This document shows positions 1 through 20,249 of a DNA stretch of 20,249 nt, one piece after another. Origin of the DNA: a virus; the IMG/VR virus record IMGVR_UViG_3300020152_000062, positions 1 through 20,249 of that record; one strand, given 5' to 3'. A program made the position numbers and the translations under genes. The notes beneath the pieces are model-generated. The model was not told where the DNA came from and searched no databases. It saw only the letters and a list, made by a program, of their open reading frames with translations. Within the stretch, counting starts at the first letter, position 1. Each line of letters starts with the position of its first letter.

Positions 1-38
1 TTCGCACCCCCTAGGATGCCACTGAGCAAGCTCGCCAT
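1..38 (-). CDS. Start of an unidentified gene, truncated by the window edge
   Basis: An ATG at 38-36 follows a textbook Shine-Dalgarno with a 7-nt spacer (AGGAGTGAATCAATG) and lies 4 nt after the stop of the upstream gene. Only twelve codons are visible, reading MASLLSGILGGA, a hydrophobic glycine-rich start. The spacing and direction match the rest of the operon, so I take it as a real gene whose body lies to the left of the window. Such a beginning could fit a small membrane or virion protein, but twelve residues do not allow a function call. Confidence 0.6.
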   Translation of the reverse strand, partial: MASLLSGILGGA

Positions 39-42
39 TGAT

Positions 43-351
43 TCACTCCTGTTCTTCCGGTTCAGCCCAGGTCAACTTGTCCGAAGGCGCCACTGTGATC
101 GATTCGATCTTCGTCGTAAGAATCGCAACTGTGTCAGTCGCCTCACGAATCGGAGCATCTGTGAAATTGCAACCGATAACACCGGCCGCATTTTCAATCC
201 CAACCCACCACCAGAACGGTGAACCAGCCGGCACTGCCGCTTTCACGACAAGTGCTTGATTCGAAGGAGCAGTCGTCAGTACAATGAGACGCTGTTCTCC
301 GAACACATCCTTCTCAAAAACAAGTTTGGCCACGTTGTTCTCCTCAGCCAT
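43..351 (-). CDS. Small hypothetical protein downstream of the tail-fibre genes
   Basis: This 102-residue protein has no similarity I recognise. It starts MAEENNVAKLVFE, has a central hydrophobic and aromatic stretch (FWWWVGIENAAG, about residues 46-57) and an acidic C-terminus. No signal peptide or clear membrane helix is evident; the tryptophan run looks more like a beta-rich structural protein. The ATG is preceded by GAGGATGTGATTCA, a moderate ribosome site, and the gene begins 4 nt after the stop of the previous one. Its place at the end of the fibre block suggests a virion accessory or fibre-associated protein; this is inferred from context only. Confidence 0.75.
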   Translation of the reverse strand: MAEENNVAKLVFEKDVFGEQRLIVLTTAPSNQALVVKAAVPAGSPFWWWVGIENAAGVIGCNFTDAPIREATDTVAILTTKIESITVAPSDKLTWAEPEEQE

Positions 352-355
352 TGAA

Positions 356-826
356 TCACATCCTCATCACAAAAATGGTCATGCATGCCGGGAGCGCAGC
401 ATTCCCCTGCAGGTCCTGGCTATTCACAATGAATCCATATTGGTCTTTTTCTTCTGGATTCACATAGCAATGAGAACCTCCGCAATCGAAGAAAATCGAA
501 TACGGCTCTGTGATTTCCATTGCGAAAATCACATAAATCTGGTTCTCACTGATTGGGAAAGCCCCGGCGAATCCGCCGGAACCGTGAATTGTCGTAACCT
601 CTCCGTTCTCGATTTTCAGAGTCGTGAGAGTATAAGCAGAAGGAGCAGCTATTGCTGGCAGAAGATCCTCTTCTTCGTAAGGAGGAATCACATTGCCTGC
701 AGCTTCCCACTCAGCAATCAACTGTCGATCTCGATTCGAGAGATCATCAGGAACAATGCTTTCGATATCACTTCCATCAAAAATGATTCGAATAGCCCCA
801 TTCTTGTTATACCCAATGATGTTCAT
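356..826 (-). CDS. Hypothetical protein, possibly fibre-associated
   Basis: The protein has 156 residues. I chose the ATG at 826, giving MNIIGYNKNGAIRIIFDG, because GGAG stands 7 nt upstream and because it begins just after the stop of the long fibre gene (TGACATG), whereas the longer reading frame would overlap that gene. The N-terminal half contains a charged helical segment (NRDRQLIAEWEAAGN, about residues 31-45) followed by a proline and acidic turn, a layout I associate with small proteins encoded beside tail fibres. The C-terminal half looks beta-rich. It may be a fibre chaperone or a small receptor-contact protein, but I do not recognise a family. Confidence 0.75.
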   Translation of the reverse strand: MNIIGYNKNGAIRIIFDGSDIESIVPDDLSNRDRQLIAEWEAAGNVIPPYEEEDLLPAIAAPSAYTLTTLKIENGEVTTIHGSGGFAGAFPISENQIYVIFAMEITEPYSIFFDCGGSHCYVNPEEKDQYGFIVNSQDLQGNAALPACMTIFVMRM

Positions 827-827
827 G

Positions 828-2489
828 TCAAAGCTCCGAATCCGCAGTAGCGCCAGGTACAATTGCGGTAGCTGGATCAGTTGGACTAAGTGCAAATCGC
901 ACACCGTCTAGCTCAGCAGCTGACTCGTTTAGACTACCACCTGTTGCTGATGCTGTGATAGTTGGAATCGAACGTTTTCGTGTCTTGAAAAACCACATGG
1001 CAACTGCCGTAGTCTGCCAACCAGTTGGTGCTGCTCGTGGTGACGTGATGATGGAGATAGTTTTCATTTTTTCAAAAAACCGAAAACACAGTGATTCCTC
1101 TTGATCCGTCGACCTCATTCCAAATGGATCATCCTCTTTGCTGGCATCGCCTATGACAAGACTGACTCTGGTCATATCAAAGGTACCAGATTGCTGGCCA
1201 AGATTCAATGTATCAGCATTGAGATTTGAGCCAGCATCAAACCAAAAAGTCAAACCCAAATAGTGATCATTATTAGTTCCAAGCGTCTTGTCTGCGATTC
1301 CAGGAACATCGATAACCGCTGTGAATTTCTGCCATTCCGTCGAAAGCGTGAATCTCTGCGCACCAATAAGAGTCACAGCAGCGGATGGAGAACCTCCAGT
1401 TCCAAAACTCTGTGCCAGATTCATGGCAATATCTTTTACTGAGTCAGCTTTCGCATAAAAAGTCACTGTAACCTTTTTACCCGCAAGTATTCGAACATCT
1501 TCGATTCGTTGCTGGCGATAAACAGTATTCGCTGCACCAGCTACACTAACAACAACTGTTCTTGAATAGAAAGGTGTATTCTTCAGTGCAGCTAAATCAT
1601 TCAGAGGAGTGGCAATGATTGAATGAGTCTTCGTTGAGCCGAAATGAGCGTTGCGCCAACGATCGTCACTTCCGTAACCACTGGTTGTTTGTGAATCTGC
1701 ACGTTGCCGCACTCTGGAATCACCATTGATAATATAATTCCATCGACCTAGGGAGGCTCCATTCAAATCAAATGCGTCTGTAATCGAATTCCCATCCATG
1801 TCAACATCGCCAGTGATAGTTCCACCAGCTTTATCGAATTTCTGATTCAAGTCGGCCGTTGTGACACCTGTGGAAAGAATCCAATCTTCCCACACAGTGT
1901 CCACTTTAGCTCTGGTATAAATCTTTCCAGAACCGTCTCGGTCGTAGAGCACTTGAATCAAGTTATCAATGCTTTGTGCATTGACGATGATCGACACATT
2001 ACGATTCGTACCAGTGTCAATATCGGCTGGCAGATTCCCAGCTGTGGACGGGTCAGCCGTATAGAACCCATTGTAGATGGCATCATTCAAATCATTCACA
2101 TTCAAAGCTGCAGCCTTGAGTCGATCCTGATGTGCGCCATCTTTGAGTCGCCATGTGCCAGCAACAGTCGTGTCCGCTAACTTCTGAAAGATAGCAAGCA
2201 GCACGGATGCTTTCCAGACAGCGACCTGCTCATCACCCTCGAGTCCATCATCGCCGATTTCAACCATGGTCTTCGTGCCTTGCAGCAAGATATTTGAATC
2301 CTGAAGCAAGTCATGCAAATGCCCAACCATGACCACCTTGTGACCACCGGCTGTCGTGCCATCCATGATATGAATCGACCAATCGGTCGTATTGATGATT
2401 AACTGGCGTGCCGCACCAATGGTAACAGCGATAACCCCTTCAGTCCCACCGGCCTGCTGCGCGACTTTATAATTGCTCGGAAACGTCAT
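828..2489 (-). CDS. Putative tail fibre / receptor-binding protein with carbohydrate-binding-like C-terminal half
   Basis: This protein of 553 residues is preceded by AGGAGAATCAGATG. The first 90 or so residues look like a virion-attachment region. The middle carries two segments typical of phage fibres: a stretch with SIIVNAQSIDNLIQVLYDRDGSGKIYTR (about 166-193), of the kind repeated in fibre shafts, and KFDKAGGTITGDVDMDGNSI (about 215-234), the fibre motif of G-T-x-T-G-D-x-x-M. Residues of about 245-440 begin RWNYIINGDSRVRQR and have the layout of a jelly-roll carbohydrate-binding domain (VYRQQRIEDVRILAGKKVTVTFYAKAD). The last about 100 residues resemble a receptor-binding tip. It probably sets host range. 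The function comes from motif recognition and position, not from a search. Confidence 0.85.
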   Translation of the reverse strand: MTFPSNYKVAQQAGGTEGVIAVTIGAARQLIINTTDWSIHIMDGTTAGGHKVVMVGHLHDLLQDSNILLQGTKTMVEIGDDGLEGDEQVAVWKASVLLAIFQKLADTTVAGTWRLKDGAHQDRLKAAALNVNDLNDAIYNGFYTADPSTAGNLPADIDTGTNRNVSIIVNAQSIDNLIQVLYDRDGSGKIYTRAKVDTVWEDWILSTGVTTADLNQKFDKAGGTITGDVDMDGNSITDAFDLNGASLGRWNYIINGDSRVRQRADSQTTSGYGSDDRWRNAHFGSTKTHSIIATPLNDLAALKNTPFYSRTVVVSVAGAANTVYRQQRIEDVRILAGKKVTVTFYAKADSVKDIAMNLAQSFGTGGSPSAAVTLIGAQRFTLSTEWQKFTAVIDVPGIADKTLGTNNDHYLGLTFWFDAGSNLNADTLNLGQQSGTFDMTRVSLVIGDASKEDDPFGMRSTDQEESLCFRFFEKMKTISIITSPRAAPTGWQTTAVAMWFFKTRKRSIPTITASATGGSLNESAAELDGVRFALSPTDPATAIVPGATADSEL

Positions 2490-2501
2490 CTGATTCTCCT
2501 A

Positions 2502-3110
2502 TCAGGCCCAAGAACCCCACACGCCAGCCGCTTTCCGCCTCGTGTAGACAGTATTAGTTGAAGTTGTCAGCGAAATAACTCGCTGAATCACGAACTCTTC
2601 ATCGCTAGTATTCTTACCAGCAATGACCCAAAGTGCCCCGTCAGCAACTCCAGCTAGAGCAGCAGGCATTGCATTCGCATTGCGGTCAGTCGCATACTGA
2701 CCCGACTCCGTAGCTGCATCAAGATCATCAATGAACGTCAGTGTCCCTGACAATCGAGCAGCCGTTCGAATCGTAATATCACCCGCTTGTCCGTTCGGAT
2801 TATCGATGATGATTCCATCACCGGGAATCAATTTGCGAAGTCGAAATGTCTTGTCAGCGACTCGCACCATGATTCCCAGTAAATCCGAAGCAAACTTGAT
2901 TTGCCCCAGTTCTGAATCAGCTCGAACAAACAATTGCTTAAGCTGATCCAGATTCGGAATACGGAATCCACCTCGCTTCTTGCCATTATGCAAGCGAAGT
3001 TCACTACGCTGTGAATCAACAGTCACCTGCCCCGGCGGCCCAACGTAATCATCGTTGACAGCCGTTGTGTTGCGCGGAAACTGGACTCGCTTGTTCGATG
3101 CATCAACCAT
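2502..3110 (-). CDS. Putative tail-fibre or tail-hub protein with Mtd-like N-terminus
   Basis: The protein has 202 residues. The N-terminus (NKRVQFPRNTTAVNDDYVG, then GQVTVDSQRSELRLHNG) follows the pattern of the short attachment domain at the start of many fibre proteins, including the major tropism determinant: a residue that replaces a time/parameter block, then a line describing a parameter set. Residues 90-200 repeat the shaft type seen in the next gene, for example TLTFIDDLDAATESGQYATDR and VYTRRKAAGVWGSWA, so the two genes share a domain and may form one fibre together. It stops 12 nt before the long fibre gene. The ribosome site (AAGGGCAG) is weaker than its neighbours'. Confidence 0.8.
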   Translation of the reverse strand: MVDASNKRVQFPRNTTAVNDDYVGPPGQVTVDSQRSELRLHNGKKRGGFRIPNLDQLKQLFVRADSELGQIKFASDLLGIMVRVADKTFRLRKLIPGDGIIIDNPNGQAGDITIRTAARLSGTLTFIDDLDAATESGQYATDRNANAMPAALAGVADGALWVIAGKNTSDEEFVIQRVISLTTSTNTVYTRRKAAGVWGSWA

Positions 3111-3122
3111 TGGTATCTGCCC

Positions 3123-4955
3123 TTAACCCTGTTGTCCTGCATAATGTAACGTAATTTCCAACGACCTCATGTGATATTTTTCACCTGATTGAGTCGCAGA
3201 GAAAGTGAGTCGGTGATTGTGCCCGTGCGTGAAACAAGTCCACATGTCCATGTCGATGCGTCGAGTAGCTAGGACCGGCGTCACTTCGAGTTCTGATTCA
3301 TAACCATCGAGGTTACTCGTGAGTCGCAAGCCATATTCATAGGCATTCAAGAACGACTGTTCCTTGTACCAGTCCTCATCGCCATTCAGTTTCAGATTCC
3401 AATCTTCGAGAGGAATCACATCATAGCTGCCTTCTGGCGTGTCATTGTAATCCTCAGCCGGACCCCAATCATTGAAATCAATCGAAACCGGCCCGATGAC
3501 GTCCATATTCATGTCGACTGAATCACTGAACAACATCAAGTTGTAATCCTCGACGCCTTCCATGAAATTGTAATCGTCCTTGTAGTCATTCAAACCGTAT
3601 GCATTGTAATCGTCATTGACATTGACGAATCCAGTATTCCAGTTAATGAATGACTCATCTCCATTCCAATCTTCTTCAATGACAGCTGTGTCCGTCAATC
3701 TCGGTCCATTGGACGTGAGGACTTCCTGAATCTCAAAATTGCCATCAGCAGTCTGAACTTGGCTGGGACGAATGTAACCCAGGATGATTTCCGAGTCGAG
3801 TCCTGCTTGCTGACCATCCACTGATTCCACAACACCAGAAGCGTCAAATAGATGAGGAAAGCCCTCCAAATCAATCCAACCATAATCGTCGATTTCATTA
3901 CTGAACCTTACGATTCCATGATGATCAGTTGAAAAGATTCCCCATTTGTCCAACTTGACACTGAGGACGTATGTGTGATTGAAGTGATTCGTTCCGTCCA
4001 TGATCTGCACATAGAGATGATCCATCTCCTGAATGTACGAGAGGCGGAACACAATATCCTCTGATTCACGAATGAATTCTCTCAGATACTCATTGAATAT
4101 CGGAGTCAACTCTTGGAATCCAGCTTGTGCCGTAGACCTCATGAGTCCTTGTTTAGTCATGATGACGATCGAACCATCTTGCATGTTCGACCAGGCTGCT
4201 CCGCCAATGAGCAGCTGATCGGTGTTGACTCGATCGAAACGAAATACTGATTCACCACCCACATATTCGCCGATGAGTACTCCCCCATCAGTCCACAACA
4301 AGAATCCACCCTCAAACGTCGTGAGCGTGATCGGATTCCCAGGCACCAATTCTGCCGTGACTTGGAAACCGGCGCCACCGAGAGTTGGAGTGAAGTCATC
4401 ACCATCAAACGGAGCCGAATAGGCCAGAGTGAAGCGAGTCAACACTACCAGTCGGCCATTCGTCTCCACAATGGCGATCGGATCTTCAGGGATTCCAGGA
4501 CCTGTATGCGGCTCTAATGAATCACTAAGCACTTTAAAAGTGCCCCTCTGCGGATGACAAACATAGTACGCATACCCAACATATGCGCTCGTCCATTTCT
4601 GATTCTTCACATCTCTGGCATACAGTGATTCAAACTCAGCCACCGTATTCCAATACTCATATGCTTCGCCCTCGAGAGTGACTGGTTCTAGTCCTGTCCA
4701 CCTACGATCGAGTGCCTTTGTTTCTGTGAAGAGAATCGTGCGGTCTGCAAAGCTAATTGATTCAGTAACAAAACCACCTGCGCTGATAGCCCCACCGGGC
4801 AACACGCTGCTTCCGAATCCAGACTTCGGTCCTTTGGAATCAAAATAGTAATTCCGACCGTTTAATACAAAAAGACTCCCGTTCTCGACAGCTTTCGCCT
4901 CGACAGCGGGAGTCCAAGACTGAACCTCAGGAAATGCAACTCTAGTCGAGGGCAT
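3123..4955 (-). CDS. Putative tail nozzle / tail tubular protein B-like structural protein
   Basis: This 610-residue protein lies where podoviruses carry the nozzle (T7 gp12, P22 gp10, SU10 nozzle). It is beta-rich with repeated WTDGGVLIGEY-type and FDASGVVESV-type blades, as expected of a beta-propeller platform. I assign it by size, composition and place beside the fibres. An odd region at about residues 427-530 is packed with short acidic-aromatic words of the form D-Y-N or D-W-N (about nine copies), which may bind metal ions or form a surface insertion. The ATG is preceded by GGAGGTTAGTATG; the Shine-Dalgarno lies inside the last codons of the 49-codon gene, so the two are probably translationally coupled. 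Confidence 0.75.
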   Translation of the reverse strand: MPSTRVAFPEVQSWTPAVEAKAVENGSLFVLNGRNYYFDSKGPKSGFGSSVLPGGAISAGGFVTESISFADRTILFTETKALDRRWTGLEPVTLEGEAYEYWNTVAEFESLYARDVKNQKWTSAYVGYAYYVCHPQRGTFKVLSDSLEPHTGPGIPEDPIAIVETNGRLVVLTRFTLAYSAPFDGDDFTPTLGGAGFQVTAELVPGNPITLTTFEGGFLLWTDGGVLIGEYVGGESVFRFDRVNTDQLLIGGAAWSNMQDGSIVIMTKQGLMRSTAQAGFQELTPIFNEYLREFIRESEDIVFRLSYIQEMDHLYVQIMDGTNHFNHTYVLSVKLDKWGIFSTDHHGIVRFSNEIDDYGWIDLEGFPHLFDASGVVESVDGQQAGLDSEIILGYIRPSQVQTADGNFEIQEVLTSNGPRLTDTAVIEEDWNGDESFINWNTGFVNVNDDYNAYGLNDYKDDYNFMEGVEDYNLMLFSDSVDMNMDVIGPVSIDFNDWGPAEDYNDTPEGSYDVIPLEDWNLKLNGDEDWYKEQSFLNAYEYGLRLTSNLDGYESELEVTPVLATRRIDMDMWTCFTHGHNHRLTFSATQSGEKYHMRSLEITLHYAGQQG

Positions 4956-4956
4956 A

Positions 4957-5106
4957 CTAACCTCCGTTTTCCAATTGCTTGACTCTCTCCTTGAGAGTCT
5001 CTATTTCTTTTCGCAACTCGGATTCCAGGTCACGACAATCCTTAATGAGCTTTTCTATGCTCAATGTGTCTTTGCCATAACGCTGGAATCGAGTGCTTTG
5101 ACTCAT
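4957..5106 (-). CDS. 49-residue coiled-coil protein between virion lysozyme and nozzle genes
   Basis: This gene encodes 49 residues, starting MSQSTRFQRYGKDTLSIEKL and ending LKERVKQLENGG. It begins in an ATGA overlap with the stop of the virion lysozyme gene and ends one base before the ATG of the nozzle-like gene, so it fits exactly between its neighbours. GGAG stands about 10 nt before the ATG. Residues 16-46 form a continuous charged helix with leucines and isoleucines at roughly heptad spacing, predicting a coiled coil. It could be a small virion or assembly factor; there is no family I recognise. Its reality rests on the perfect packing, ribosome site and non-random composition. Confidence 0.75.
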   Translation of the reverse strand: MSQSTRFQRYGKDTLSIEKLIKDCRDLESELRKEIETLKERVKQLENGG

Positions 5107-6890
5107 GATATCGTACTCCACTGATAAGGCTTACGAGTCGTTTTCGGCAACGAAATGTCAATTGCCAATGGTTGAATCATCTCCAGATTCGGCAACGTGA
5201 ATTGTGGAATTTTGATCCCGAAATCATCCGAGCCTGCGCTTCCACTATCATCACTTGATGCCATCTCTTTTGACTCACCCTTCCCACTCTTATTGTCACC
5301 GCGCTGATACGCGAATCCACCGAGTCCAGTTTTATCCGTCGTATCTGCGCTGCCATCGAATAGATTCCCAAGGAATCCAGCCAGCCCTTTCGGCGCATCC
5401 GGATCAGGTTCACCTTCAGGCCCTGGATTATTCATCCGAGGACTGTTTGTGATTGAATCAACGATGGTATCGAGTACGAATCCAACTGGATCTCGAATTA
5501 CTCTCGTCGCCTCAATAGCCGCCTTAACCGGCTTCTGGTCATCGAGCAACTGGCTGACTCTAGCTGCTCCCTGCCTCTTCGTATCCGCAATTTGCGGAAC
5601 TCCTGGCTCTGGCTCACCACGAGCAATTCGACCAGCTGGAGTCGATATCCTGTCAACATAGGCACCAGCGACAGTTTGCCCAACTTGAGACTTCTCTGCC
5701 TCGTCACCGGCAAAGAATCCGCCTGCCATTTGAGCGAGTCCGCCCAATCCCAACTCACTGCCAATCGTGTCGGCCAAGTCTCTGGCAAATGAGCCAAGTG
5801 GATTCGATGCTGTTTGAGTCGCGGTCGAAGACTTACCAGCCGGCGTCTGTACACCAGAGGTCACTTCCGAAATGGCAGCCTGAGCAGGACTCTGGTCAGC
5901 TGAAGCAGTCTGACTCCCAGACATTGCCGACATAAGACCGCGAGCATTATCCACCGTATTGGTGAAGCCATGTCCAGCTGTTGGATTCGAGGCTGTATAA
6001 CCCTGTGGCCGCTCATAATGCATCATGCCAATAGCGGCTTCTTCTTCCGTCTTAGCATTAGTCAGTGCTTGTAATGCCCTAGCCTCATCCGGGTTATTCC
6101 TGATCTCATGATCGAAGAATCGAGCTTGTGCCTCAACATCATTCCAGTCCATGCCAATGCTCTCAGCATATGCCCTGCCTGCTTCAAGCCTCTCACGATT
6201 CCATTGACCAATACCAACAGAATGAAGACCTGGACCTGCATCATTCAATCGAGTGGCATTCGGGTCAAGGTGGTCATATGACTCTTGCTGAAAACGACCA
6301 ACGATTCCAGCAATATGATGAGGCTGCCAGCCTAATTCAGCTAGCGTGTTCGCAACGATTCCAACATTGCCAGTCAAGCCAGCAAAAGCTGTCGTCGGTG
6401 TAACTGGAGTCCCAGCAATAGTCGAAGCAAGCGCATTCAGCGCAGAACCAACAGTACTGCTGGTTCTCGTTTCCATGCGATCAAAGAATCCACTAATAGC
6501 ACTACCAATGGAATTCAAAGCATCGCGAGTCGAATTCATCGCATCTTGCGTAGCACGACTTCCGCTTTGCGTACCACTGGGATTCGATCCACCATTACTA
6601 CCAGAGAATCCACTAGATGAACGTCCACTGTTACTACCACGACTGCTACCACCATTGCTGCCACTGAATCCACCACTGGAACTACCATTACGGCCACCGC
6701 CGCCATAGCTAACACCACTAGTGGAAGTCTGATTCCCAGAACGGCTCTGAGAACCAGACTCCTGTCGTCCAGAAGACGGACCGGTTGAGCGACCGCTAGT
6801 TGTATTACCAGTGGACCCACGTCCGCCAGGAGATGCAGAGTTAGGACTGCTAGCGCCACGGCTTGCATTTTCGTCGCTAGTCATACCCAT
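5103..6890 (-). CDS. Virion-associated lysozyme (phage tail lysozyme-like domain) with long Ser/Gly-rich N-terminus
   Basis: This protein has 595 residues. Residues 1 to about 112 are low-complexity Ser/Gly/Asn/Arg with a duplicated block (GFSGSNGGS at about 74-82 and 94-102). Residues about 173-322 match the phage tail lysozyme pattern: helix GIVANTLAELGW, then HHIAGIVGRFQQESYDHLDPN with a likely catalytic glutamate near 203, then HSVGIGQWNRERL and a late HYERPQGYTA segment. The remainder is Asp/Gly/Pro-rich and uncharacterised. The enzyme probably cuts peptidoglycan during genome entry rather than lysis, since a separate endolysin exists. GGGAG stands 9 nt before the first ATG; a second ATG is two codons later. 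It overlaps the 49-codon gene by 4 nt. Confidence 0.8.
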   Translation of the reverse strand: MGMTSDENASRGASSPNSASPGGRGSTGNTTSGRSTGPSSGRQESGSQSRSGNQTSTSGVSYGGGGRNGSSSGGFSGSNGGSSRGSNSGRSSSGFSGSNGGSNPSGTQSGSRATQDAMNSTRDALNSIGSAISGFFDRMETRTSSTVGSALNALASTIAGTPVTPTTAFAGLTGNVGIVANTLAELGWQPHHIAGIVGRFQQESYDHLDPNATRLNDAGPGLHSVGIGQWNRERLEAGRAYAESIGMDWNDVEAQARFFDHEIRNNPDEARALQALTNAKTEEEAAIGMMHYERPQGYTASNPTAGHGFTNTVDNARGLMSAMSGSQTASADQSPAQAAISEVTSGVQTPAGKSSTATQTASNPLGSFARDLADTIGSELGLGGLAQMAGGFFAGDEAEKSQVGQTVAGAYVDRISTPAGRIARGEPEPGVPQIADTKRQGAARVSQLLDDQKPVKAAIEATRVIRDPVGFVLDTIVDSITNSPRMNNPGPEGEPDPDAPKGLAGFLGNLFDGSADTTDKTGLGGFAYQRGDNKSGKGESKEMASSDDSGSAGSDDFGIKIPQFTLPNLEMIQPLAIDISLPKTTRKPYQWSTIS

Positions 6891-6893
6891 GAG

Positions 6894-7232
6894 TCAGATC
6901 TCCCTGCTGTCCGCCAACTGCTGCATACACTTCACTAACTTGCGAAGCTCATCCGTAATGTCTTCCATCATCTCTTGAGTCCGACGTTCGCGTCGTATCG
7001 AATCATCATGCATATCACCCATGCGGTCAACTGCATGATCAATCGTCTCAATCAGGCTCTTGATGGCCCTATTATCCACGGCGCTGGCGATTACTTCAAC
7101 TTGATTCTCAGGTTGCACATTCGAACCTTTCGCCCAACCCATCTTAGTCGCCACCCCAACCACTACAGCTACTGCGAATCCAACTAACCATTGGGTCCAC
7201 TCACTAATAACCTGCGCGTGTTCTCCTGCCAT
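6894..7232 (-). CDS. Small membrane protein, N-terminal helix plus coiled coil (holin or spanin candidate)
   Basis: The protein has 112 residues with one hydrophobic helix at about residues 14-34 (WLVGFAVAVVVGVATKMGW) and then a long charged helical region (about 45-108) rich in Glu, Arg and Asp, suggesting a coiled coil. I chose the ATG at 7232 (MAGEHAQV), where GAGGG is 11 nt upstream; an ATG six codons earlier has no clear ribosome site. It overlaps the end of the multi-helix membrane protein by 29 nt and is the last gene of the lysis cluster. One membrane helix plus a coiled coil fits an i-spanin or a one-helix holin, or a virion protein; context favours a lysis role. Confidence 0.75.
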   Translation of the reverse strand: MAGEHAQVISEWTQWLVGFAVAVVVGVATKMGWAKGSNVQPENQVEVIASAVDNRAIKSLIETIDHAVDRMGDMHDDSIRRERRTQEMMEDITDELRKLVKCMQQLADSREI

Positions 7233-7707
7233 TACGATAGACCCTCGCATCTATGATTGCCGTATAGATCGCTGCGACCTCGAAGGATGCAGAAGGTAAA
7301 TACATCGCGATTCCAGTTGATGGAGGGTTCCCATAAACTAACCACGATATGAACATACTGGTTGCAATCATGCTGAAGGCAATACAGCCTAGCACAGCCC
7401 TCCCGACTCGTATCCAAGGAGTTACCGACTCCATAGAACCGTTAATCACGAGTCCAATGAGACCGGATGCTCCAATCATCATCAGAAACCAGCCCCAGGA
7501 CTCCTCCTGGCCCCATGTTGCCATAGCCAAAAAAGCCCCGGAGGTACTAAATGTTGGGGCGGAATCAAGGAGAATCCACCCTAACAGAAACATTTGAATC
7601 GAAGCAAGCCACTCAATGTTTCGCTGTCGAAACTTATGTTTGACTCGCAGCACCATTCGATGCTGGGACGCTTCCGTCAGGACTTCCTGTTTCTGTATTC
7701 TGTCCAT
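7204..7707 (-). CDS. Multi-pass membrane protein, holin candidate
   Basis: The 167-residue protein starts MDRIQKQEV at the ATG at 7707, which has GGGAGTCCAA immediately upstream; longer in-frame starts lack such a site and would overlap the o-spanin-like gene more. A charged N-terminus (about 1-30) is followed by about four hydrophobic segments: WLASIQMFLLGWILL (about 33-47), WGWFLMMIGASGLIGLVI (about 71-88), VLGCIAFSMIATSMFISWLV (about 104-124) and the weaker SASFEVAAIYTAII (about 140-153). It lies next to endolysin and spanin-like genes, so a holin or antiholin role is plausible, but the sequence matches no holin class I can name. Confidence 0.75.
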   Translation of the reverse strand: MDRIQKQEVLTEASQHRMVLRVKHKFRQRNIEWLASIQMFLLGWILLDSAPTFSTSGAFLAMATWGQEESWGWFLMMIGASGLIGLVINGSMESVTPWIRVGRAVLGCIAFSMIATSMFISWLVYGNPPSTGIAMYLPSASFEVAAIYTAIIDARVYRNGRRTRAGY

Positions 7708-8081: not shown

Positions 8082-8082
8082 G

Positions 8083-11695: not shown

Positions 11696-11776
11696 TGATT
11701 CATTCCTCTCGTTGAAATAGGCCACTCATCTCACTTGAATCCGGAGACGAATGGCCTTTCGCTCGTTTCCGGATGT

Positions 11777-12550: not shown

Positions 12551-12571
12551 TCCTAGTTTCCCTTCCGTGGG

Positions 12572-12784: not shown

Positions 12785-12800
12785 GGCTTGCTCCTTCGCG

Positions 12801-12995: not shown

Positions 12996-13066
12996 AGCTG
13001 AATCCTTTAGCTGCACGACCCCTCTGAGCCGTGGGTTCCCCTGCGCCATTCCCACTCGACTACTCC

Positions 13067-13105
13067 GTCCCCGCCCTTTGCTCCGCTTCGCTCCGCTGCG
13101 GGGAC
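13067..13105. other. Hairpin GTCCCCGC / GCGGGGAC
   Basis: A perfect 8-bp inverted repeat with a 23-nt loop that contains repeats of GCTCCGCTTCGCTCCGCT. It lies in the portal downstream spacer. No T-run flanks it. Confidence 0.45.
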
Positions 13106-13175
13106 TCCGCTTAACGTCGAGCGTGAACCTTGGCTCTGGTGACATGCGCTCCGGGAAGAATCGCTGACGCTCGCT

Positions 13176-13204
13176 AGTTGGCCTTGGGTACCCCAAGGCC
13201 AACT
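13176..13204. other. Perfect 13-bp hairpin downstream of the portal gene
   Basis: AGTTGGCCTTGGG and CCCAAGGCCAACT are perfect inverted repeats around a 3-nt loop (TAC), 66 nt after the portal stop codon. The minus-strand sequence after it (AGCGAGCG) is not T-rich, so a Rho-independent terminator is uncertain; it may act as a processing or stability element. Confidence 0.6.
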
Positions 13205-13270
13205 CGCAAGCTAGCTTATCTACCCGTCACTCCTGTCAACCCACTAGTCTCAACCGGGGCCGCCGTTGAT

Positions 13271-15178
13271 TTACTGAATGATTCCAGCCATTCCAGCAGG
13301 CATCGATTCCGTAGAAGCTCCTGTGGCGGCTCCTGTTGTGGGATCAACTGCGGTCTGTTCGTTGGAGAGAGTTGGTTGAATCATGAATTGACCAAGATCA
13401 GTTCCGATGTTGAGGAGCAGACTGTAGAGAGTCCACAGTCCCATCATGTCAATTCCCTTGGCTGCGTCTGGATTCTGAATCAGTGCGAAGATCAACGATC
13501 GAATCTGCTCGGCTGCGGCTTCGCGCGTGATTTGGCCTAGGCCGCTGTTCAGCAAGTCTGCGACTTCTTCGTCGGTCACAGCGGTGAACTGACTCTTCTC
13601 CTTGTCGTACTTAGCAATGTTTCGATACTGCGCCATTCTGGTTGGCAACATCAGTGATGAATCAAGCATACGCACGAACATATGAAGTTTACGCATGCTG
13701 CCTTGCATGACAGCTGAGACCTGACTCGTGATTGCTCTGTCCATGCCGGCAATCTGAGCAGGCAAAGATTGATTCGGGAAGAACTGCTTCATCAGATCCA
13801 GAACGCTGCCGGCGTCGGCCATGTTCTGTCTGGAATCAAGATTGTTATCAAGCTTTACGAGTCCGCTACGCACATCACGACCACCGATCTTTGAAACCAG
13901 TAGACCTGAGGTTTCACCATTCTGAATCTTGCTGACGTCGAACATGGTAGGGTCAACGCCTTTCAAGCCCCAGATTTGTGAACGAATCCCTTCAATGTGG
14001 GTATTGATGAGGAAGCTCATGAATCGTTGGAATGGCTTAATGTGTTCAGCGATACTGCGGGCTGCTTCTTTTAGTTCATCCACATTGAGTCGTGCCATGT
14101 AAATAGGAAGTTCGGTCGCTTCTTCCATTTTATCCATGGCAACGATCCAACGACCATCCACAAGTGTGAATCGATATAGCTGAATCGGTGATTCCTCGTT
14201 GTCTTCGTCATACAGATCGAACTGCTTTTCATTGATCCAGCAGTACATGAGGATCACTTCATGGCCATCGATGTCAACAACGGAATCAGCATCTGTCCCG
14301 AGACCATACTTGGCCCAGTCAACATTACTGACTCCATTACCAGACTTCGTGTCACCGCCATCTGATTCAATATTTGTCTGACTCGGAGGATATCGATAAT
14401 ATGATGCCTTACCGAACTCGTACGAATTCGACCCATCGCCAGGACGCTCACTGAAGATTTTGTCGAGATTGATGAGTCCATTTTGCTCAGCCTGTCGAAT
14501 CAACCACAGACGATTACGAACTCCGGCAATAGCTGCCCACTCGCCATCCTTGTGCAACTTCTGCATGTCGACAACTGACGGATCGTACATGAAATTGTAG
14601 ACGTCAATTGATTCACACTTGTTACCTTCTGACTCATCGAGCTTATTACCCGGAGTCCAGGTGATATGAAAACCACCGAGGTTATACTTGTGCAGTGCCC
14701 GCATGGCGCAGGTAATATTGAAATAGTAATTGTTGATCTTGGTGTCTTGATTCATCTTGGCCGTCAACTTCTTGACAGCTTCGGTCTTGCTGCGCTGACC
14801 TGGATCAGCATAGAAGTTGCCACCCAAGGGTGCAAAGACCTCTGAGAAGAATGCAACAGCGTCATCGATATGCGCTTGCGCTACCGGCAGATTCACAGGA
14901 ATAGCCTGCGACTTGCCAGTCATATCTTCTCGTGAATCACGCATGGAATCTTCTTCGCTAAGTCTCTGCCAAGTCGACACCATTTGGTCGATACGAGCGA
15001 AACGCTGAATGCGATTCCCGCGTTTAGGTCTTTCCTTGTCCAACTTGGACTTCAGGTAATCCACTAGCTGCGTGTGTTGCTCGTCGGAGAGCATTGATTC
15101 ATCAACAGCCTCACCAGAAGGCTGCGCCACATCCTTGTCAGGATCGAACTGCATGCGTGCGTCATCTTTGTCGTACAT
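13271..15178 (-). CDS. Portal protein
   Basis: This protein has 635 residues, the usual size of a podovirus portal. It begins with an acidic arm and DYLKSKLDKERPKRG, and includes typical features of the clip/stem region and crown: QAIPVNLPVAQAHIDDAVAF, a wing with HVITWTP-like beta strands (GGFHITWTPGNKL), and late helices QPFQRFMSFLINTHIEG-like (about 395-410 KPFQRFMSFLINTHIEGIR). Its C-terminus is Ala/Thr/Gly-rich (DPTTGAATGAS). It forms the dodecameric channel for DNA packaging with the terminase. The ATG has AGGAGAGAATCAT in front, and that Shine-Dalgarno overlaps the terminase stop codon, so translation is coupled. Confidence is high from context; sequence signatures of portals are weak. 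Confidence 0.85.
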   Translation of the reverse strand: MYDKDDARMQFDPDKDVAQPSGEAVDESMLSDEQHTQLVDYLKSKLDKERPKRGNRIQRFARIDQMVSTWQRLSEEDSMRDSREDMTGKSQAIPVNLPVAQAHIDDAVAFFSEVFAPLGGNFYADPGQRSKTEAVKKLTAKMNQDTKINNYYFNITCAMRALHKYNLGGFHITWTPGNKLDESEGNKCESIDVYNFMYDPSVVDMQKLHKDGEWAAIAGVRNRLWLIRQAEQNGLINLDKIFSERPGDGSNSYEFGKASYYRYPPSQTNIESDGGDTKSGNGVSNVDWAKYGLGTDADSVVDIDGHEVILMYCWINEKQFDLYDEDNEESPIQLYRFTLVDGRWIVAMDKMEEATELPIYMARLNVDELKEAARSIAEHIKPFQRFMSFLINTHIEGIRSQIWGLKGVDPTMFDVSKIQNGETSGLLVSKIGGRDVRSGLVKLDNNLDSRQNMADAGSVLDLMKQFFPNQSLPAQIAGMDRAITSQVSAVMQGSMRKLHMFVRMLDSSLMLPTRMAQYRNIAKYDKEKSQFTAVTDEEVADLLNSGLGQITREAAAEQIRSLIFALIQNPDAAKGIDMMGLWTLYSLLLNIGTDLGQFMIQPTLSNEQTAVDPTTGAATGASTESMPAGMAGIIQ

Positions 15179-15189
15179 ATGATTCTCTC

Positions 15190-16728
15190 CTAGTAAGGAA
15201 CGTATTGAGATTGATGTACTGACTCAGCCATTACTTGTTGCTGAATCAGCTGAAGTTTCTCTTTCAGGAATCCACCTTCCTGAATTTGCTCACCTGCTTG
15301 CGCCCAGGCTATGACACCGTAGGCGGCTGCATCAGGAATGTCTTCGTGATCGGTTGAATCAGGATCATAGAGACTAATTTCAGTCAATAGCTCTTCTTCC
15401 TCGATTGCGACTCCATAATTGCCCGATGCAATCGAATTAATCATCGCAAGAATGCGACTCGCCTTGGCAACACCACCGGACGGAAGCCCAATCATGGTGA
15501 ATAGCTGCTCTGGAATCTGCCTTTCCTTTAACTTTGCCTTGAAAAGACTAATCAAAAGTCGTTGAGCAGCTACTGACTCGATTCCCCAGGTTGAAATATT
15601 CCAGTAATAACTCAATTCAATAAGCGTATCCAGCATTTGATCCTCGGACATGCGTCCTTTACGTGAATCAACGATGAATGGGATCACTCGCTCCTTAATT
15701 TTCACGTGAACCACTATGCCTGTGGGATCATGCCAACTTTTTTGTCCGAATGCAGGGTCAACTGTGATGATTCCAGCAACGACTTCGTCTGGATTCGGTC
15801 TTGGAATGCGAACAGCCTGGCTGAGATCAATTTTGAAGATTGAATCAGCAGTCATATTCATCATTTCATAGACCCAGACGTGTCCAACACCCTTGGATCG
15901 ATAGTTTTTGTAGTCCTCTAGCAGTTCTTCTAGCGTGTAGAGTCCAGACCAGAGAGCTTTCAACTCGCCAGTGGTCTTATCTCTGATGATTGCACCGTAT
16001 ACAGTTGGATTCCAAGCTGGATCCTTGCTGAATCGATACAACATTGTCCTCGAATTGATCATGTTACCAAGCATAATGCGAACAGAACGTCTCGCAGTTG
16101 CCTTTAGCAGGTTACCCATGAGCCAAGTATCAAGATTTGCCTGTGATTCATCACTCGCTGCCGTTCTGTTGTCTTCACAGTCGTCGATAACCAGCAATTC
16201 AGGGCGCTTATTGTCAACCAGAGTACCACGAACCTGCTGATCAGAGCCAATAGCTTTCAACAAAACAGTTTTTCTGCCTCGATTCGGCGTTCCAATCTCT
16301 AGAATCCACAACTGTTCAGCCTCATTGGACTTAATAACCGTCGTATGGCCAAAAACATGCTGGTCATGGTCAGTCCGAAGCCAGTTCACTATGTCTCGAC
16401 ACGCCGCTTTCGCGATACCTGCCGTCAGTGAGGCATAGACCGCAAAGCTGATTCGCGAATAACGAAAGAAAAGAATGATTGCCAACTTTGTGAGAGTCGA
16501 TTTCGCATGACCACGAGGTACACAAAAGAGTTTCTGTAAGTGCCCACGCCAGTCATCGAGATTCACAGCGTTCACAATATTAACAAACTCGTCCCAAATC
16601 TCCTCATGCAGCTGTGGAACATCGAGAGTCAGCTCATCTTGAAGATAAAAACTCAAGAAAGCAACGCAATCAGTGCGCATTGCCTCCTTGAGTTCTTCAA
16701 TATCGAGTTCAACTAGCTGCGAATCCAT
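15190..16728 (-). CDS. Terminase large subunit
   Basis: The 512-residue packaging motor has an ATPase domain with a deviant Walker A, VPRGHAKST at about 70-78, and Walker B LLVIDDCED at about 178-186, with Asp183 or Glu185 as the likely catalytic acid. The nuclease domain follows: first aspartate in ITVDPAFG near 324, later acidic motifs in WGIESVAAQRLL and in EDIPDAAAYGV near the end. It cuts the concatemer and pumps DNA through the portal. The gene starts one base inside the stop of the upstream gene (TAATG) with GGAGAG upstream, and stops just before the portal. Length and motif order are normal for the family. Confidence 0.93.
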   Translation of the reverse strand: MDSQLVELDIEELKEAMRTDCVAFLSFYLQDELTLDVPQLHEEIWDEFVNIVNAVNLDDWRGHLQKLFCVPRGHAKSTLTKLAIILFFRYSRISFAVYASLTAGIAKAACRDIVNWLRTDHDQHVFGHTTVIKSNEAEQLWILEIGTPNRGRKTVLLKAIGSDQQVRGTLVDNKRPELLVIDDCEDNRTAASDESQANLDTWLMGNLLKATARRSVRIMLGNMINSRTMLYRFSKDPAWNPTVYGAIIRDKTTGELKALWSGLYTLEELLEDYKNYRSKGVGHVWVYEMMNMTADSIFKIDLSQAVRIPRPNPDEVVAGIITVDPAFGQKSWHDPTGIVVHVKIKERVIPFIVDSRKGRMSEDQMLDTLIELSYYWNISTWGIESVAAQRLLISLFKAKLKERQIPEQLFTMIGLPSGGVAKASRILAMINSIASGNYGVAIEEEELLTEISLYDPDSTDHEDIPDAAAYGVIAWAQAGEQIQEGGFLKEKLQLIQQQVMAESVHQSQYVPY

Positions 16729-17606
16729 TATGTCTCTCCATCAGCCAGCTTGCTCAGTTGTGGAATATCGGTCGACGTCAGCATTTCTGCTGAATCAGCC
16801 AGTCTCACAACCTCCCCTTCGATCGTTTTTGGTTTTGAAAGTTGATTCATGGTCCTCTGAGAGAGGCTGAGAGTCACTCTTCCGATCGATCCGGGCCCTG
16901 GCAGCCCGCCATCTGACTCGATAGGCTGTCCATATTGATTCAATTGCACATTAACCTGTGTGCCAGGAGCATGCGGCTTACCGTCCATGATCTCACCTCC
17001 TGGACCTCGACGAGTCGCTGCATTCGCCACCCTGGCAATCTGCAAGTACTCCCCGGTGGTTAAGTTTTTCTTCTCAACGAGTCCGATGATTTTCGCCAAA
17101 GCAGCGTTTTCGACTCGATCCCAATTGAATCCACGTTTCCGTAGTGATTCAAGCTCTAGCAATTTCTCCAATCGACGAGCTTGTACTTGATCCGGATTCG
17201 AAATCTGAATGCAATGCTGAAGCTCACCTACCTCACAGCGAAGCCTCTTCGACAAAGCAGCAACTTCCGGTCCATCCCACTCGTCTTCATCCTGAATCAA
17301 AGCCTCTAGAATATTCTCCTGCAACTCCCCCCACTTCAGCCAACCCTCAGGAGGCATCTCGGATGGAATCAACTCTGATTCAGCAGATACCCCCGGGGTT
17401 GACTCACTGATTAACTCAACGTCGGCACCAATCTCCAACTCAACTTCAAATTCCTCTTCCACTGCCGAGGCCGATACCTCTTCAGCTAGTGATTCACTAA
17501 TCACTTTCCTCGGCCTCCCGCCTAAATTCCTTTCCTTCGCCCCATAAAGGGAATCCGGCCCTAGCCCCTCTACTAGCGAATCACTATCTTCAAACCCTAT
17601 TTCCAT
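16728..17606 (-). CDS. Putative terminase small subunit
   Basis: The 292-residue protein immediately precedes the large terminase and overlaps it by one base, the usual place of the DNA-recognition subunit. It is longer than typical small terminases. GGRPRKV at 29-35 resembles an AT-hook core. Residues 37-90 are acidic, with repeated E-S and D-S pairs, and residues of about 100-175 are helical (EVGELQHCIQISNPDQVQ, RRLEKLLELESLRKRG), which could carry the helix-turn-helix. A further NLTTGEYLQIARVANAAT helix follows. A perfect AGGAGG stands 5 nt before the ATG. The function is inferred from position; no motif is decisive. The E-S/D-S pairs largely reflect GANTC sites. Confidence 0.65.
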   Translation of the reverse strand: MEIGFEDSDSLVEGLGPDSLYGAKERNLGGRPRKVISESLAEEVSASAVEEEFEVELEIGADVELISESTPGVSAESELIPSEMPPEGWLKWGELQENILEALIQDEDEWDGPEVAALSKRLRCEVGELQHCIQISNPDQVQARRLEKLLELESLRKRGFNWDRVENAALAKIIGLVEKKNLTTGEYLQIARVANAATRRGPGGEIMDGKPHAPGTQVNVQLNQYGQPIESDGGLPGPGSIGRVTLSLSQRTMNQLSKPKTIEGEVVRLADSAEMLTSTDIPQLSKLADGET

Positions 17607-17692
17607 TCCAGCCTCCTATAAAGTGCCGAATCTGTCCACCCCCACGCGGGATAGGGGTGGTCTTATTAACGGGCCGACTCCCGGCTGCGGAA

Positions 17693-17709
17693 GGGGGGCT
17701 CTACCCCCC
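17693..17709. other. G6/C6 hairpin
   Basis: GGGGGG, loop CTCTA, CCCCCC: a compact stem of six GC pairs in the spacer before the terminase genes. A further G-run (GGGGGG) lies at about 17732-17737. Confidence 0.5.
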
Positions 17710-17924
17710 GGCATTCGGATTCGGAGCAGTAGGGGGGAGGCCCTTTCTTGCTCGAAGCGGTTGTGTTAGCGTGCGAGTCGCAGACGAGCCATGAGCCGAA
17801 GGCGAATCAAGCATGCGTCGCAGACTCCGCTCTTGCGAGCCAACGGCGAGCCAAGCAAATAAGTAGTGAGCGTAAGCGAACGCCGCTTCCGATTCGGAGC
17901 GAGCGCAGCGAGCGGAGAAAATTT

Positions 17925-17967
17925 CCGAGATTCAATCTTGAACCTTTGAGTCAAGATTGAATCTCGG
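17925..17967 (-). terminator. Perfect 17-bp-stem hairpin after the small early genes
   Basis: The arms pair over 17 bp with a 9-nt loop and lie 52 nt after the stop of the 89-residue gene. Each arm carries a GANTC site. On the minus strand it is followed by AAATTTTC, a short T-run, so it may end the leftward transcript of the small genes, though it is not a textbook terminator. Confidence 0.55.
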
Positions 17968-18018
17968 CAGTGATTCAGAGTTAAGGAAGGTTTCGGACCC
18001 TGCGGGAGTCCACGCTGT

Positions 18019-18288
18019 TCAGAATCTGCTGGCAAGCCATGATTCGGCAAGCCATGCGACGGGTTGAATCGCTAACGCGGCTATCAGCGGCCACGCAATC
18101 AAGCACACAACCATTTCCACCTCGCTGCCGCCCTTCACCCAGCGTTCCACACCTTCCCAGCCGCTGCCGCTGCCACTGGCCTTGGCCTTGCTCTGCTCTT
18201 TGACTCGACGAGAGAGTGACCATGTGAGAGTCAATCGGCCAAGTTTGACGAAATGAAGTCCACCCACTTTGAAAACGCGCTTCCTCAT
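18019..18288 (-). CDS. Small membrane protein, unrecognised
   Basis: The 89-residue protein starts MRKRVFKVGGLHFVKLG, with basic and beta-type residues, a Ser/Gly linker (KASGSGSGWEG, about 39-49), and a hydrophobic C-terminal region (EMVVCLIAWPLIAALAIQPVAW, about 59-80) that looks like a membrane segment. I chose the ATG at 18288, with GAGGAGG 10 nt upstream, over a TTG three codons earlier that lies only 1 nt from the site. It starts 5 nt after the stop of the preceding gene. A competing frame over the same bases has poorer composition. The function is unknown. Confidence 0.6.
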   Translation of the reverse strand: MRKRVFKVGGLHFVKLGRLTLTWSLSRRVKEQSKAKASGSGSGWEGVERWVKGGSEVEMVVCLIAWPLIAALAIQPVAWLAESWLASRF

Positions 18289-18293
18289 TGGAG

Positions 18294-18629
18294 TCAAGCC
18301 TCCTCAATGAGCGCGGCGAAGGCGATTAGCTGGGCCAAGGCTTGGCGAGTCGCTTCGATCTGCTGGGCAAGCATGGGGCCATGTGAGGCACGAGTGACTT
18401 CGGCATGCATTGCCATCTTGCGCAAGTGTTGCACCGAGTCATTGGTGTTTTCAAGGTAGGCAGTGATTGTGCCAAGCGTAGGGGCTTGCCATGCTCCGGG
18501 CTTGGCTTCTTGCTTGCGAGTCATCAGGCGCAAATAGCTTTGCAAGTCGCTTTGCAAGAGCGGGGCTTGCTCCAAGGCAGAGGTGGCGGCGATGGAATCG
18601 AGTGTGTCGGGAGAGATCGAGTGTGTCAT
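18294..18629 (-). CDS. Hypothetical helical protein
   Basis: The 111-residue protein begins MTHSISPDTLDSIAATSALE at the ATG at 18629, with AAGGA 9 nt upstream. The frame extends further upstream, but without a better start. It is helical throughout, with Q/E/A-rich stretches (LQSDLQSYLRLMTRKQEAK, AYLENTNDSVQHLRKMAMHAEV, LAQQIEATRQALAQLIAF). No membrane or signal features. Two ATCGAGTG copies lie near its start, inside and just ahead of the gene. No family recognised; small regulatory or host-interaction protein is possible. Confidence 0.7.
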   Translation of the reverse strand: MTHSISPDTLDSIAATSALEQAPLLQSDLQSYLRLMTRKQEAKPGAWQAPTLGTITAYLENTNDSVQHLRKMAMHAEVTRASHGPMLAQQIEATRQALAQLIAFAALIEEA

Positions 18630-18672
18630 GATGTTGATTCCTTGGTTGCGAGTGAGTGAGAATCGAGTGATA

Positions 18673-18918: not shown

Positions 18919-18934
18919 TTCCAAAAACTCCTAT

Positions 18935-18969
18935 GAGGCGTAATTGCCTATGGACTCAATATACGCCTC
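18935..18969. promoter_or_regulatory. Inverted repeat overlapping the promoter, operator candidate
   Basis: GAGGCGTA (18935-18942) and TACGCCTC (18962-18969) are perfect 8-bp inverted repeats 19 nt apart. One arm overlaps the -10 box by 2 bases and the other lies just after the expected start of transcription. This would suit a repressor that loops or covers the promoter, or a hairpin in the 5' leader. Confidence 0.5.
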
Positions 18970-18986
18970 AAACCTTAACAATTCAA
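18958..18986 (-). promoter_or_regulatory. Sigma-70-like promoter for the leftward small-gene transcript
   Basis: On the minus strand TTGAAT (18986-18981) and TATATT (18963-18958) are separated by exactly 17 nt. This is the best promoter I found; the start would be near 18950, about 30 nt ahead of the gene at 18918. Confidence 0.55.
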
Positions 18987-19249
18987 TACCTTCATCCAAT
19001 TAATTCTCCTTGGAATCGAGTGCCTAACACTCTTGCGAGTGGGCAAGTGCAAGGCGGAATCGAGTGTCCTAGAGAGTGATCGAGTGAAGCAGGGTTGTCG
19101 CAATCGAGTGAATGACGAGTGCCGCAAACCCTTTTGACTGTGATTCAGCCCATACCCTCACAATCGGCCACAGAAGGCCACACAGAGGCTTTTGACTCTC
19201 GCCAGTATAACCACATAGGCAACCATGCTGGACGCGCTCTGTGGCGATT

Positions 19250-19265
19250 TAGGAATTGATTCCTA
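19250..19265. promoter_or_regulatory. Near-perfect palindrome TAGGAATTGATTCCTA
   Basis: Two 7-bp arms flank a 2-bp centre. It contains a GANTC site. It lies between the terminator and the repeat array and has the size and symmetry of a dimeric repressor site. No matching regulator gene is in the window. Confidence 0.4.
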
Positions 19266-19317
19266 GAAACAATGGTGCGCGATTGTTCGCAATTAGTAAA
19301 CAGTCCTCATAGAACGC

Positions 19318-19352
19318 AAAAAGGCCGCAACCCTTTCGGAATTGCGGCCTTT
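19318..19352 (-). terminator. Intrinsic terminator of the rightmost gene
   Basis: AAAGGCCGCAA and TTGCGGCCTTT pair over at least 11 bp around an 11-nt loop, and the minus-strand transcript continues with TTTTTGCG. It begins 23 nt after the TAA of the gene at 19376, so this gene block is cut off from the small genes to the left. Confidence 0.85.
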
Positions 19353-19375
19353 GGAGTCAGTCGGGTTTGAGTCGA

Positions 19376-20249
19376 TTAGAACTCAATGCCAACGAGGTCG
19401 GATGCATTGACGGTCGGTTCGCTATAACCGAGGTTCAGGCTCTCGCGGTTGTCGATCCAGTCTTGAACAGTGGACATGTCAACTGGCGTTGGCTTGCCGT
19501 CGGCGTCCTTCATCTGCGGTCCGGCCTGAATCATCGCCTTCGCGATCTTCACGAAAAGTCCGGCTTCTTCAAGAACCGTGCACTTCGGGTTGGCCTTGGC
19601 ATAGCTGGCCGAACGAATCGACTTGATGATGTCGGGCTTGGTTGGCAGTGCTGCTTCAACCTTCGGCATCTTCTTACGCAGGACTCCAATGCGGAATGGC
19701 ATCCACACAGCGTCGAAGGCGTCGGTGTCAAGGCCGCTGGATTCACGCGACGTGGTCACGATATCGCCGACCGTGGCAGGAATGCCCACAACAGCCGTTT
19801 CAAGATCGGAAAGCGATTCCGCCGCACGGAGACCTTGGAACGCAACATCGGTTGCCTCGCGTTCAATCAGCTTGGCAACCCAGTTGACGGCGGCCTCTGA
19901 TTCATCGGTCTTGAAGTCATCGATTGCGGGCGCCTCAAAAGCAACGATTGCCTTCAAGCCATTCGTCGAAGTGGCCTTGTCGCGGACTCCCACAGTTGCA
20001 ACGCAAATGCGTTTCGCGTCGGTGATGTGGGCCGATTCGCTGCCTTCACGAGTCAACAACGGCAGACCATAAAAAGAGTCGGTCTTGCCGCTGGCTTCTT
20101 CAATAGCCTTGCTGGCCTTGTCGAAAGCGCTATTGCCTTCGCCTTCTTCCGAGTCATAGAAGACACGGTCGCCACCAAGTGCGGCTTTCACAGCCTTCAC
20201 CTTGTCCTTGTCCATCAGTGGGACAAGCTTGTCGGAAGTCGGTGCGGAT
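19376..20249 (-). CDS. Unidentified phage protein, 5' end outside the window
   Basis: The frame is open to the right edge: an ATG at 20215 is visible, but SAPTSDKLVPL is readable in frame before it and no stop interrupts, and no Shine-Dalgarno precedes that ATG, so the true start probably lies beyond 20249. At least 290 residues are coded. The protein is acidic, alpha/beta mixed, with the repeated charge pattern of a soluble enzyme or binding protein (GLKAIVAFEAPAIDDFKTD, VGDIVTTSRESSGLDTDAFDAVW), ending in SDLVGIEF. No family recognised. The terminator after its stop suggests the last gene of an upstream operon, perhaps DNA metabolism. GC content is higher and GANTC less dense (11 in 869 bases) than in the structural genes. 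Confidence 0.75.
   Translation of the reverse strand, partial: SAPTSDKLVPLMDKDKVKAVKAALGGDRVFYDSEEGEGNSAFDKASKAIEEASGKTDSFYGLPLLTREGSESAHITDAKRICVATVGVRDKATSTNGLKAIVAFEAPAIDDFKTDESEAAVNWVAKLIEREATDVAFQGLRAAESLSDLETAVVGIPATVGDIVTTSRESSGLDTDAFDAVWMPFRIGVLRKKMPKVEAALPTKPDIIKSIRSASYAKANPKCTVLEEAGLFVKIAKAMIQAGPQMKDADGKPTPVDMSTVQDWIDNRESLNLGYSEPTVNASDLVGIEF

Follow-up and report, generated by a model that had tools for sequence, protein, structure and literature searches.

We analyzed 20,249 bp of DNA from an uncultured tailed phage (IMGVR_UViG_3300020152_000062, positions 1 to 20,249), referred to here as the window, which matches at 100% identity bases 24,870 to 45,118 of a 49,526-bp IMG/VR contig, IMGVR_UViG_3300020156_000008 (G1). 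The window encodes an SU10-type major capsid protein (10493 to 11725, minus strand; PF17236, E = 1e-30), a large terminase (15190 to 16728, minus strand), a GH108 lysozyme, a protein with a tail-lysozyme domain, and a fiber. Gene order, after the terminase, places a 635-aa gene in the portal position (13271 to 15178, minus strand); Pfam and PHROG scans of it gave no match. The 3′ part of a gene that we call the 355-aa family lies at 19376 to 20249 (minus strand), with its start beyond the window. The nearest named phages were EBPR podovirus 3, Polaromonas phage Tiera, PaP2, and Kuura, with terminase identities of only ∼24 to 28%. Relatives were collected through terminase, capsid, helicase, and nuclease searches, with the capsid protein of the window among the queries. 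The genomes are metagenomic contigs throughout, part of them partial, and their ORFs were called in this analysis. A host search among genome contigs found no relative.

An array of 357 GANTC sites runs through the window (1 to 20249) with a mean spacing of 56 bp, against expectations of 78 sites from composition, 127 from an order-1 Markov model, and 152 from an order-2 model. Every full kilobase of the window holds 14 to 24 sites. When motifs of the form dinucleotide-gap-dinucleotide were scanned, GA-N-TC came out on top with a z of 20, and the next motif did not exceed 10; the next palindrome of the type XYNY′X′ was TANTA, at 1.66× on 31 sites. Eight GANTC sites fall in a noncoding stretch (18919 to 19375), so the saturation is not due to coding. 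Pairs of sites 22 to 26 bp apart are most numerous at 3295 to 7737, which holds 19 of the 43 such pairs in the window (for example, 3627/3652, 3912/3936, 5888/5912, and 7405/7427/7450).

The saturation had been described in a first-pass annotation from hand counts, and our recount returned the same values for positions 1 to 3000 (49 sites, 38 of them GAATC or GATTC, and 14 GATC), 15181 to 16200 (18), 19381 to 20249 (11), and the noncoding stretch; the 20 sites given for 10501 to 11520 were 19. The annotation had used GATC as a control near expectation, but under the Markov model this palindrome is itself depleted, to 0.65×. GATC is depleted in both the window and G1 (0.63 to 0.65×). G1 also shows a mild enrichment of CANTG (codon-shuffle z = 8.6), which has no spacing pattern. 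The description of the saturation as genome-wide was borne out by the full G1 contig, which holds 903 sites (2.89×). Two null models had been proposed that could have reduced the excess to composition. Under the Markov null the excess stayed, with no other XYNY′X′ palindrome close to it, and when synonymous codons were shuffled in 33 genes of G1 (36.5 kb of coding sequence), 277 ± ∼11 sites resulted where 647 were seen (z = 32). The excess over the shuffle was present in all three codon phases, and the G1 sequence outside the shuffled gene set carried 19 sites per kb.

Saturation extended over whole genomes in nine members of one lineage and in a tenth contig (L064), at 1.9 to 2.9× and 14 to 18 sites per kb. 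The order-1 enrichment was 2.89 in G1, 2.74 in G2, 2.39 in G4, 2.66 in G5, 2.64 in G6, 1.90 in G7, 2.72 in G8, 2.58 in G9, 2.80 in G11, and 2.45 in L064. GANTC density was nearly constant along the saturated genomes, with G7 patchier. This least saturated genome comes from metagenome 3300047678, a Sphagnum microbiome (PMC9584203), and its largest GANTC gaps cluster at ∼10700 to 18400 (G007, L040), a region that looks as if it had been recently acquired or relaxed. A tandem array of ∼72-bp repeats lies at the contig end of the G11 phage (L066:13883-14222 and L065:12467-12940).

The distant relatives were without saturation (Tiera, 1.02; EPV3, 0.98; PaP2, 1.21; Kuura, 0.25), and GANTC stood at 0.22× in G12. 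Known Caulobacter phages avoid the motif: Kuura is one, and the first 50 kb of phiCbK stands at 0.34×. The nearer relative G10, whose capsid shares 52% identity with the G8 capsid, has GANTC at 0.52× yet possesses 27 of the 28 conserved protein families. No conserved core gene therefore accounts for the trait, which was gained or lost without a change in core genes. G10 (L068:1-19412) has no GTAC in 19.4 kb and CATG at 0.39×, and thus shows ordinary palindrome avoidance instead of saturation.

Individual sites have moved while their density has not. Ten genes orthologous between G1 and G2 carry 217 and 209 sites, respectively, and only 49 of these (23%) coincide, so that ∼77% have turned over at unchanged density. 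For instance, the terminase gene has 24 sites in the window and 25 in its G2 orthologue (62% identical), with 7 at the same alignment position, and 5 of the 35 sites in the portal-position gene are common to G2. Other palindromes in the same comparison were 3 to 33% common. We therefore rejected conservation of individual sites, as 23% is within the range of other palindromes at such divergence. Because density is held while most positions move, it is coverage that counts and not the single site. Selection for the motif at the DNA level is thus supported by the codon-shuffle null, the excess in all phases, the noncoding sites, and the turnover at steady density.

The sites are spaced far more evenly than random placement would give. 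In the window, the standard deviation of the gaps was 32 bp versus 56 bp at random placement (the lowest of 500 simulations was 48), and the longest gap was 159 bp versus a simulated mean of ∼360 bp for the same number of randomly placed sites. Long site-free stretches are strongly disfavored, and in each genome 95 to 98% of the positions (85% in G7) have a site no more than 50 bp away, compared with 75 to 85% under random placement. Close to an existing site, the frequency of GANTC falls to the neutral rate at distances of 5 to 20 and 29 to 36 bp, with a sharp peak at 24 bp between them. In five genomes pooled (G1, G2, G4, G5, and G6; neutral rate, 6.6 per kb), there were 326 pairs at 9 to 20 bp (808 uniform and 306 neutral expected; observed/neutral, 1.07), 198 pairs at 29 to 36 bp (539 uniform and 204 neutral; observed/neutral, 0.97), and 433 pairs at 22 to 26 bp (337 uniform and 127 neutral; 3.4× neutral). 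A further dip was found at 58 to 62 bp. The 24-bp peak is present in G8 and absent in G7 and G9. Because the dips of the main clade lie at the neutral rate, they reflect an absence of benefit rather than avoidance, and active avoidance was rejected; G7 to G9 lie somewhat under neutral at the dips. Adding a second site thus gives no benefit at the wrong distance but does at 24 bp.

At larger distances, the hazard of meeting the neighboring site climbs from a neutral 6 to 8 per kb to 40 to 60 per kb at 75 to 112 bp, and past 38 bp its maxima fall near 40, 53.5, 67, 80.5, 94, and 107.5 bp, that is, at multiples of ∼13.5 bp. Since common ancestry makes the sites partly nonindependent, we tested two clades and new contigs separately. 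The gap periodogram gave 13.8 bp in the first clade (2,565 gaps) and 13.5 bp in G7 to G9 (1,764 gaps), with matching phase and each beyond all 2,000 simulations (P < 1/2000); the P values for spacing derive from smoothed-histogram simulations. With period and phase fixed beforehand, the signal was replicated in new contigs (P = 0.0036). The z was 4.7 in G11 alone and 10.3 in nine genomes pooled. A component of ∼25 bp is also present, and in several genomes a period of 23 to 25 bp is as strong as that of 13.5 bp. Codon phase as the sole cause of the spacing was rejected, as the period persists inside gap-mod-3 classes: two classes gave 13.4 to 13.5 bp and the third about double. None of 20 control motifs in the same genomes had a spacing signal (z ≤ 2.4). 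One-mismatch variants of GANTC showed no spacing relation to it either, which points to exact recognition and led us to reject near-cognate sites as weak members of the array. The order is local, reaching about 110 to 120 bp with nothing visible farther; there was no sharp global Fourier peak, and a long-range coherent lattice was rejected.

The array has conserved breaks. G1, G4, G5, and G6 have their longest site-free interval at the same place in the DUF3987 gene, ∼200 to 620 bp from its 3′ end, with 318 to 402 bp between site starts (L004:16010-16328 in G1, 28235-28637 in G4, 26459-26828 in G5, and 44392-44753 in G6). This GANTC-free zone of 314 to 398 bp is kept in the four genomes at 52 to 65% protein identity; G7 has 207 bp there, and G8 has nothing. 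The zone would mark some functional site, possibly for origin, loading, or packaging. A second break of 112 to 218 bp lies directly upstream of the 355-aa-family gene in seven genomes, spanning, relative to the gene start, −307 to −89 in G1, −166 to −49 in G2, −230 to −31 in G4, −167 to −55 in G5, −233 to −31 in G6, −230 to −21 in G8, and −216 to −20 in G9; G7 differs. We read this second break as a probable open promoter. Gaps are present in the divergent early region too. Gene upstream regions in general showed neither depletion of GANTC nor a concentration of sites.

We propose, with roughly even confidence, that a putative DNA-binding protein uses GANTC as its anchor site and coats or organizes the phage genome from end to end in a regular lattice, which would make it a viral nucleoid encoded in the sequence. 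Judging from the distances, the repeating protein unit would cover ∼13.5 bp (∼27 bp per dimer), and two anchored units would touch at 24 bp. Sites too close together or out of step would not both be usable, long bare stretches would weaken the coat, and the break upstream of the 355-aa gene would keep its promoter open. Repeating units anchored at GANTC would explain together the useless distances, the 24-bp peak, the 13.5-bp steps, and the even coverage. Contrary to this model, the 24-bp peak is missing in G7 and G9, and 13.5 bp is not the helical repeat of DNA. We are a little more tentative about the fuller statement, namely, that ∼900 exact GANTC sites, set at 24 bp and then at multiples of ∼13.5 bp, place a nucleoprotein lattice with conserved openings over coding DNA, as a form of viral chromatin whose positioning code would be written in the genome.

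We weighed several other explanations. That composition, codon usage, or dipeptide bias yields the excess has a negligible probability, and we consider it refuted: the codon-shuffle result contradicts it in all phases, it leaves the spacing pattern unexplained, the trait is absent from G10 despite nearly equal core genes, and no supporting point was left after testing. GANTC is the CcrM site, which speaks for a different reading in which the host carries a GANTC methyltransferase of the CcrM type, and the phage gathers sites so as to bear the host m6A pattern densely and evenly, as a self-mark against a nuclease or for strand marking in repair; the even coverage would then give the underdispersion. 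Methylation of GANTC is known from some environmental Caudovirales and Alphaproteobacteria (PMC9516812), the neutral density beside an existing site and the hazard rising with distance would fit one mark per stretch, and the depletion in G10, G12, and Kuura suggests that hosts may sense the motif. However, a host mark predicts neither the 24-bp peak nor the dips at 29 to 36 and 58 to 62 bp nor the 13.5-bp steps, and the known Caulobacter phages Kuura and phiCbK avoid GANTC. The phages themselves are without a detected methyltransferase domain: the window has no N6_N4 methyltransferase domain (PF01555), neither PF01555 nor PF02086 (D12) was found in G001, G002, G004, and G005, where records may be incomplete and divergent enzymes possible, and the Pfam-scanned proteins of G1 include no methyltransferase domain. 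The first-pass annotation had supposed that the phage profits from the methylated state or from a GANTC-binding protein and had suggested looking for a CcrM-like enzyme; selection on the motif is supported and the spacing favors a bound protein, but the CcrM part gained no support, as no such methyltransferase was found in the window or in the scanned genomes of the lineage. A mark that needs only to be frequent explains the even coverage; the useless distances, the 24-bp peak, and the 13.5-bp steps favor a bound repeating protein. We consider the host mark unlikely, although host methylation may still be involved.

GcrA is the GANTC-reading regulator of Caulobacter. In a further reading, which we regard as rather unlikely, the sites are occupied by a GcrA-like regulator, encoded by phage or host, that brings in RNA polymerase, or they titrate this regulator away from the host genome; the array would then serve as a genome-wide device for transcription or timing or as a sponge. 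This reading draws on one or two small early proteins in each of G1, G2, G4, G5, and G6, with an N-terminal helix-turn-helix (HTH) and a C-terminal ribbon-helix-helix (RHH), encoded where the early operon begins (L006:6867-7707 in G1, L007:5116-6141 in G2, L024:7222-7937 in G4, L025:8365-8781 in G5, and L037:12397-13142 in G6). Their HTH resembles the GcrA DNA-binding domain: the G6 copy matched PF07750 at E = 2e-4, with a best score of 22.0 bits, below the cutoff of 26.9, and a profile search of the genomes gave E = 1.4e-5 and 0.001, both under the cutoff. GcrA was matched among PDB profiles at E = 0.002, and the best fold match was the GcrA DNA-binding domain 5yiu (probability, 1.0; root mean square deviation, 1.3 Å over 46 residues), with an E value of 0.089 and HTH folds being common. 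A GcrA homologue is also encoded by phiCbK (PMC3556154). Against this, gene upstream regions show no concentration of sites, a sponge requires no spacing rule, and the recognition helices of nine HTH copies are not conserved, which would be improbable if these proteins all read a single motif at 900 places. Saturated G7, G8, and G9 are without HTH-RHH proteins, and G8 nevertheless has the 24-bp peak; these GcrA-like proteins are unsupported as the common binder and are only a lead. The HTH-RHH proteins evolve fast. The least probable of the readings that involve a protein, and a very improbable one, is that the sites serve a phage or host system that cleaves or modifies DNA at site pairs with set distances, for instance, a self-protected nuclease degrading other DNA. 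A PD-(D/E)XK nuclease is indeed the most conserved protein compared (72 to 75%), but it matches phage exonuclease families and is also present in unsaturated G10 and G12, no methyltransferase partner was found, and the regular coverage to 107 bp would be hard to explain. No restriction-modification pair was apparent, with no methyltransferase and, among the scanned proteins, a sole nuclease that is exonuclease-like.

As for the binder that the proposed coat would require, every saturated genome has the 355-aa family, but so do unsaturated G10 and G12, and the family is therefore unsupported; its structure model is of low confidence, and a fold search with it gave no match. A 282-aa family is the sole one of the 28 that is missing from both G10 and G12, where the G10 contig ends at the locus and the matches in G9 and G11 are weak. 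A host-encoded protein is equally possible. Several unrelated early proteins (L004:13-861, L004:1234-2232, L004:5706-6491, and L007:3364-4227) carry a similar motif near or at the C terminus, RFGDxxxxDF-like, which recalls the acidic tails of single-strand binding proteins.

Regardless of the binder, 18 sites per kb in steps of 13.5 bp, kept over large divergence and missing in G10, constitute a precise, reproducible, and unexplained phenomenon. If the coat model is true, a phage lineage bends its codon choice genome-wide to position a protein lattice, which amounts to a positioning code for phage chromatin. The code would predict protein positions, unit length, and open sites, and how phage DNA is organized and protected inside the cell, a long-standing question, would become directly testable.

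Known systems share single features with this array. SeqA of Escherichia coli binds pairs of palindromic methylation sites (GATC) at set distances and polymerizes; the motif and the genomes are different here, and the distances are regular to ∼107 bp. The stoperators of mycobacteriophages, Chi, KOPS, and DNA uptake sequences are short overrepresented motifs read by a protein, but they are far sparser, mostly asymmetric, and without lattice-like spacing. The CcrM/GcrA system of Alphaproteobacteria uses the same motif, and GcrA-like HTHs occur in small proteins of five of our phages; in contrast to that system, no methyltransferase was found here, the sites are not promoter directed, they number 18 per kb with quantized spacing, and the GcrA matches lie under the Pfam cutoff. 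Our searches of open-access papers gave no report of GANTC-saturated phages, and we know of no described system with a genome-wide palindrome at such density and with quantized spacing. The GcrA homologue of phiCbK (PMC3556154) offers the parallel of a phage with a GcrA-family protein, but the first 50 kb of that phage is GANTC depleted, whereas the genomes here are saturated. Protein p6 of phage phi29 binds as dimers every 24 bp and as monomers every 12 bp and compacts the genome (PMC10899789), which gives a precedent for a phage genome coated by a protein in a 12/24-bp repeat. Both cases would share a phage-wide organization of DNA with a short repeat, and a preferred distance of 24 bp occurs here too; here, however, the array is an exact palindrome written in the sequence and the step is ∼13.5 bp rather than 12, and p6 did not appear by name among the Pfam and PHROG matches of the scanned proteins (names only). 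If the binder proves to be a p6-like organizer, the system would be a variant of the phi29 p6 type of genome organization.
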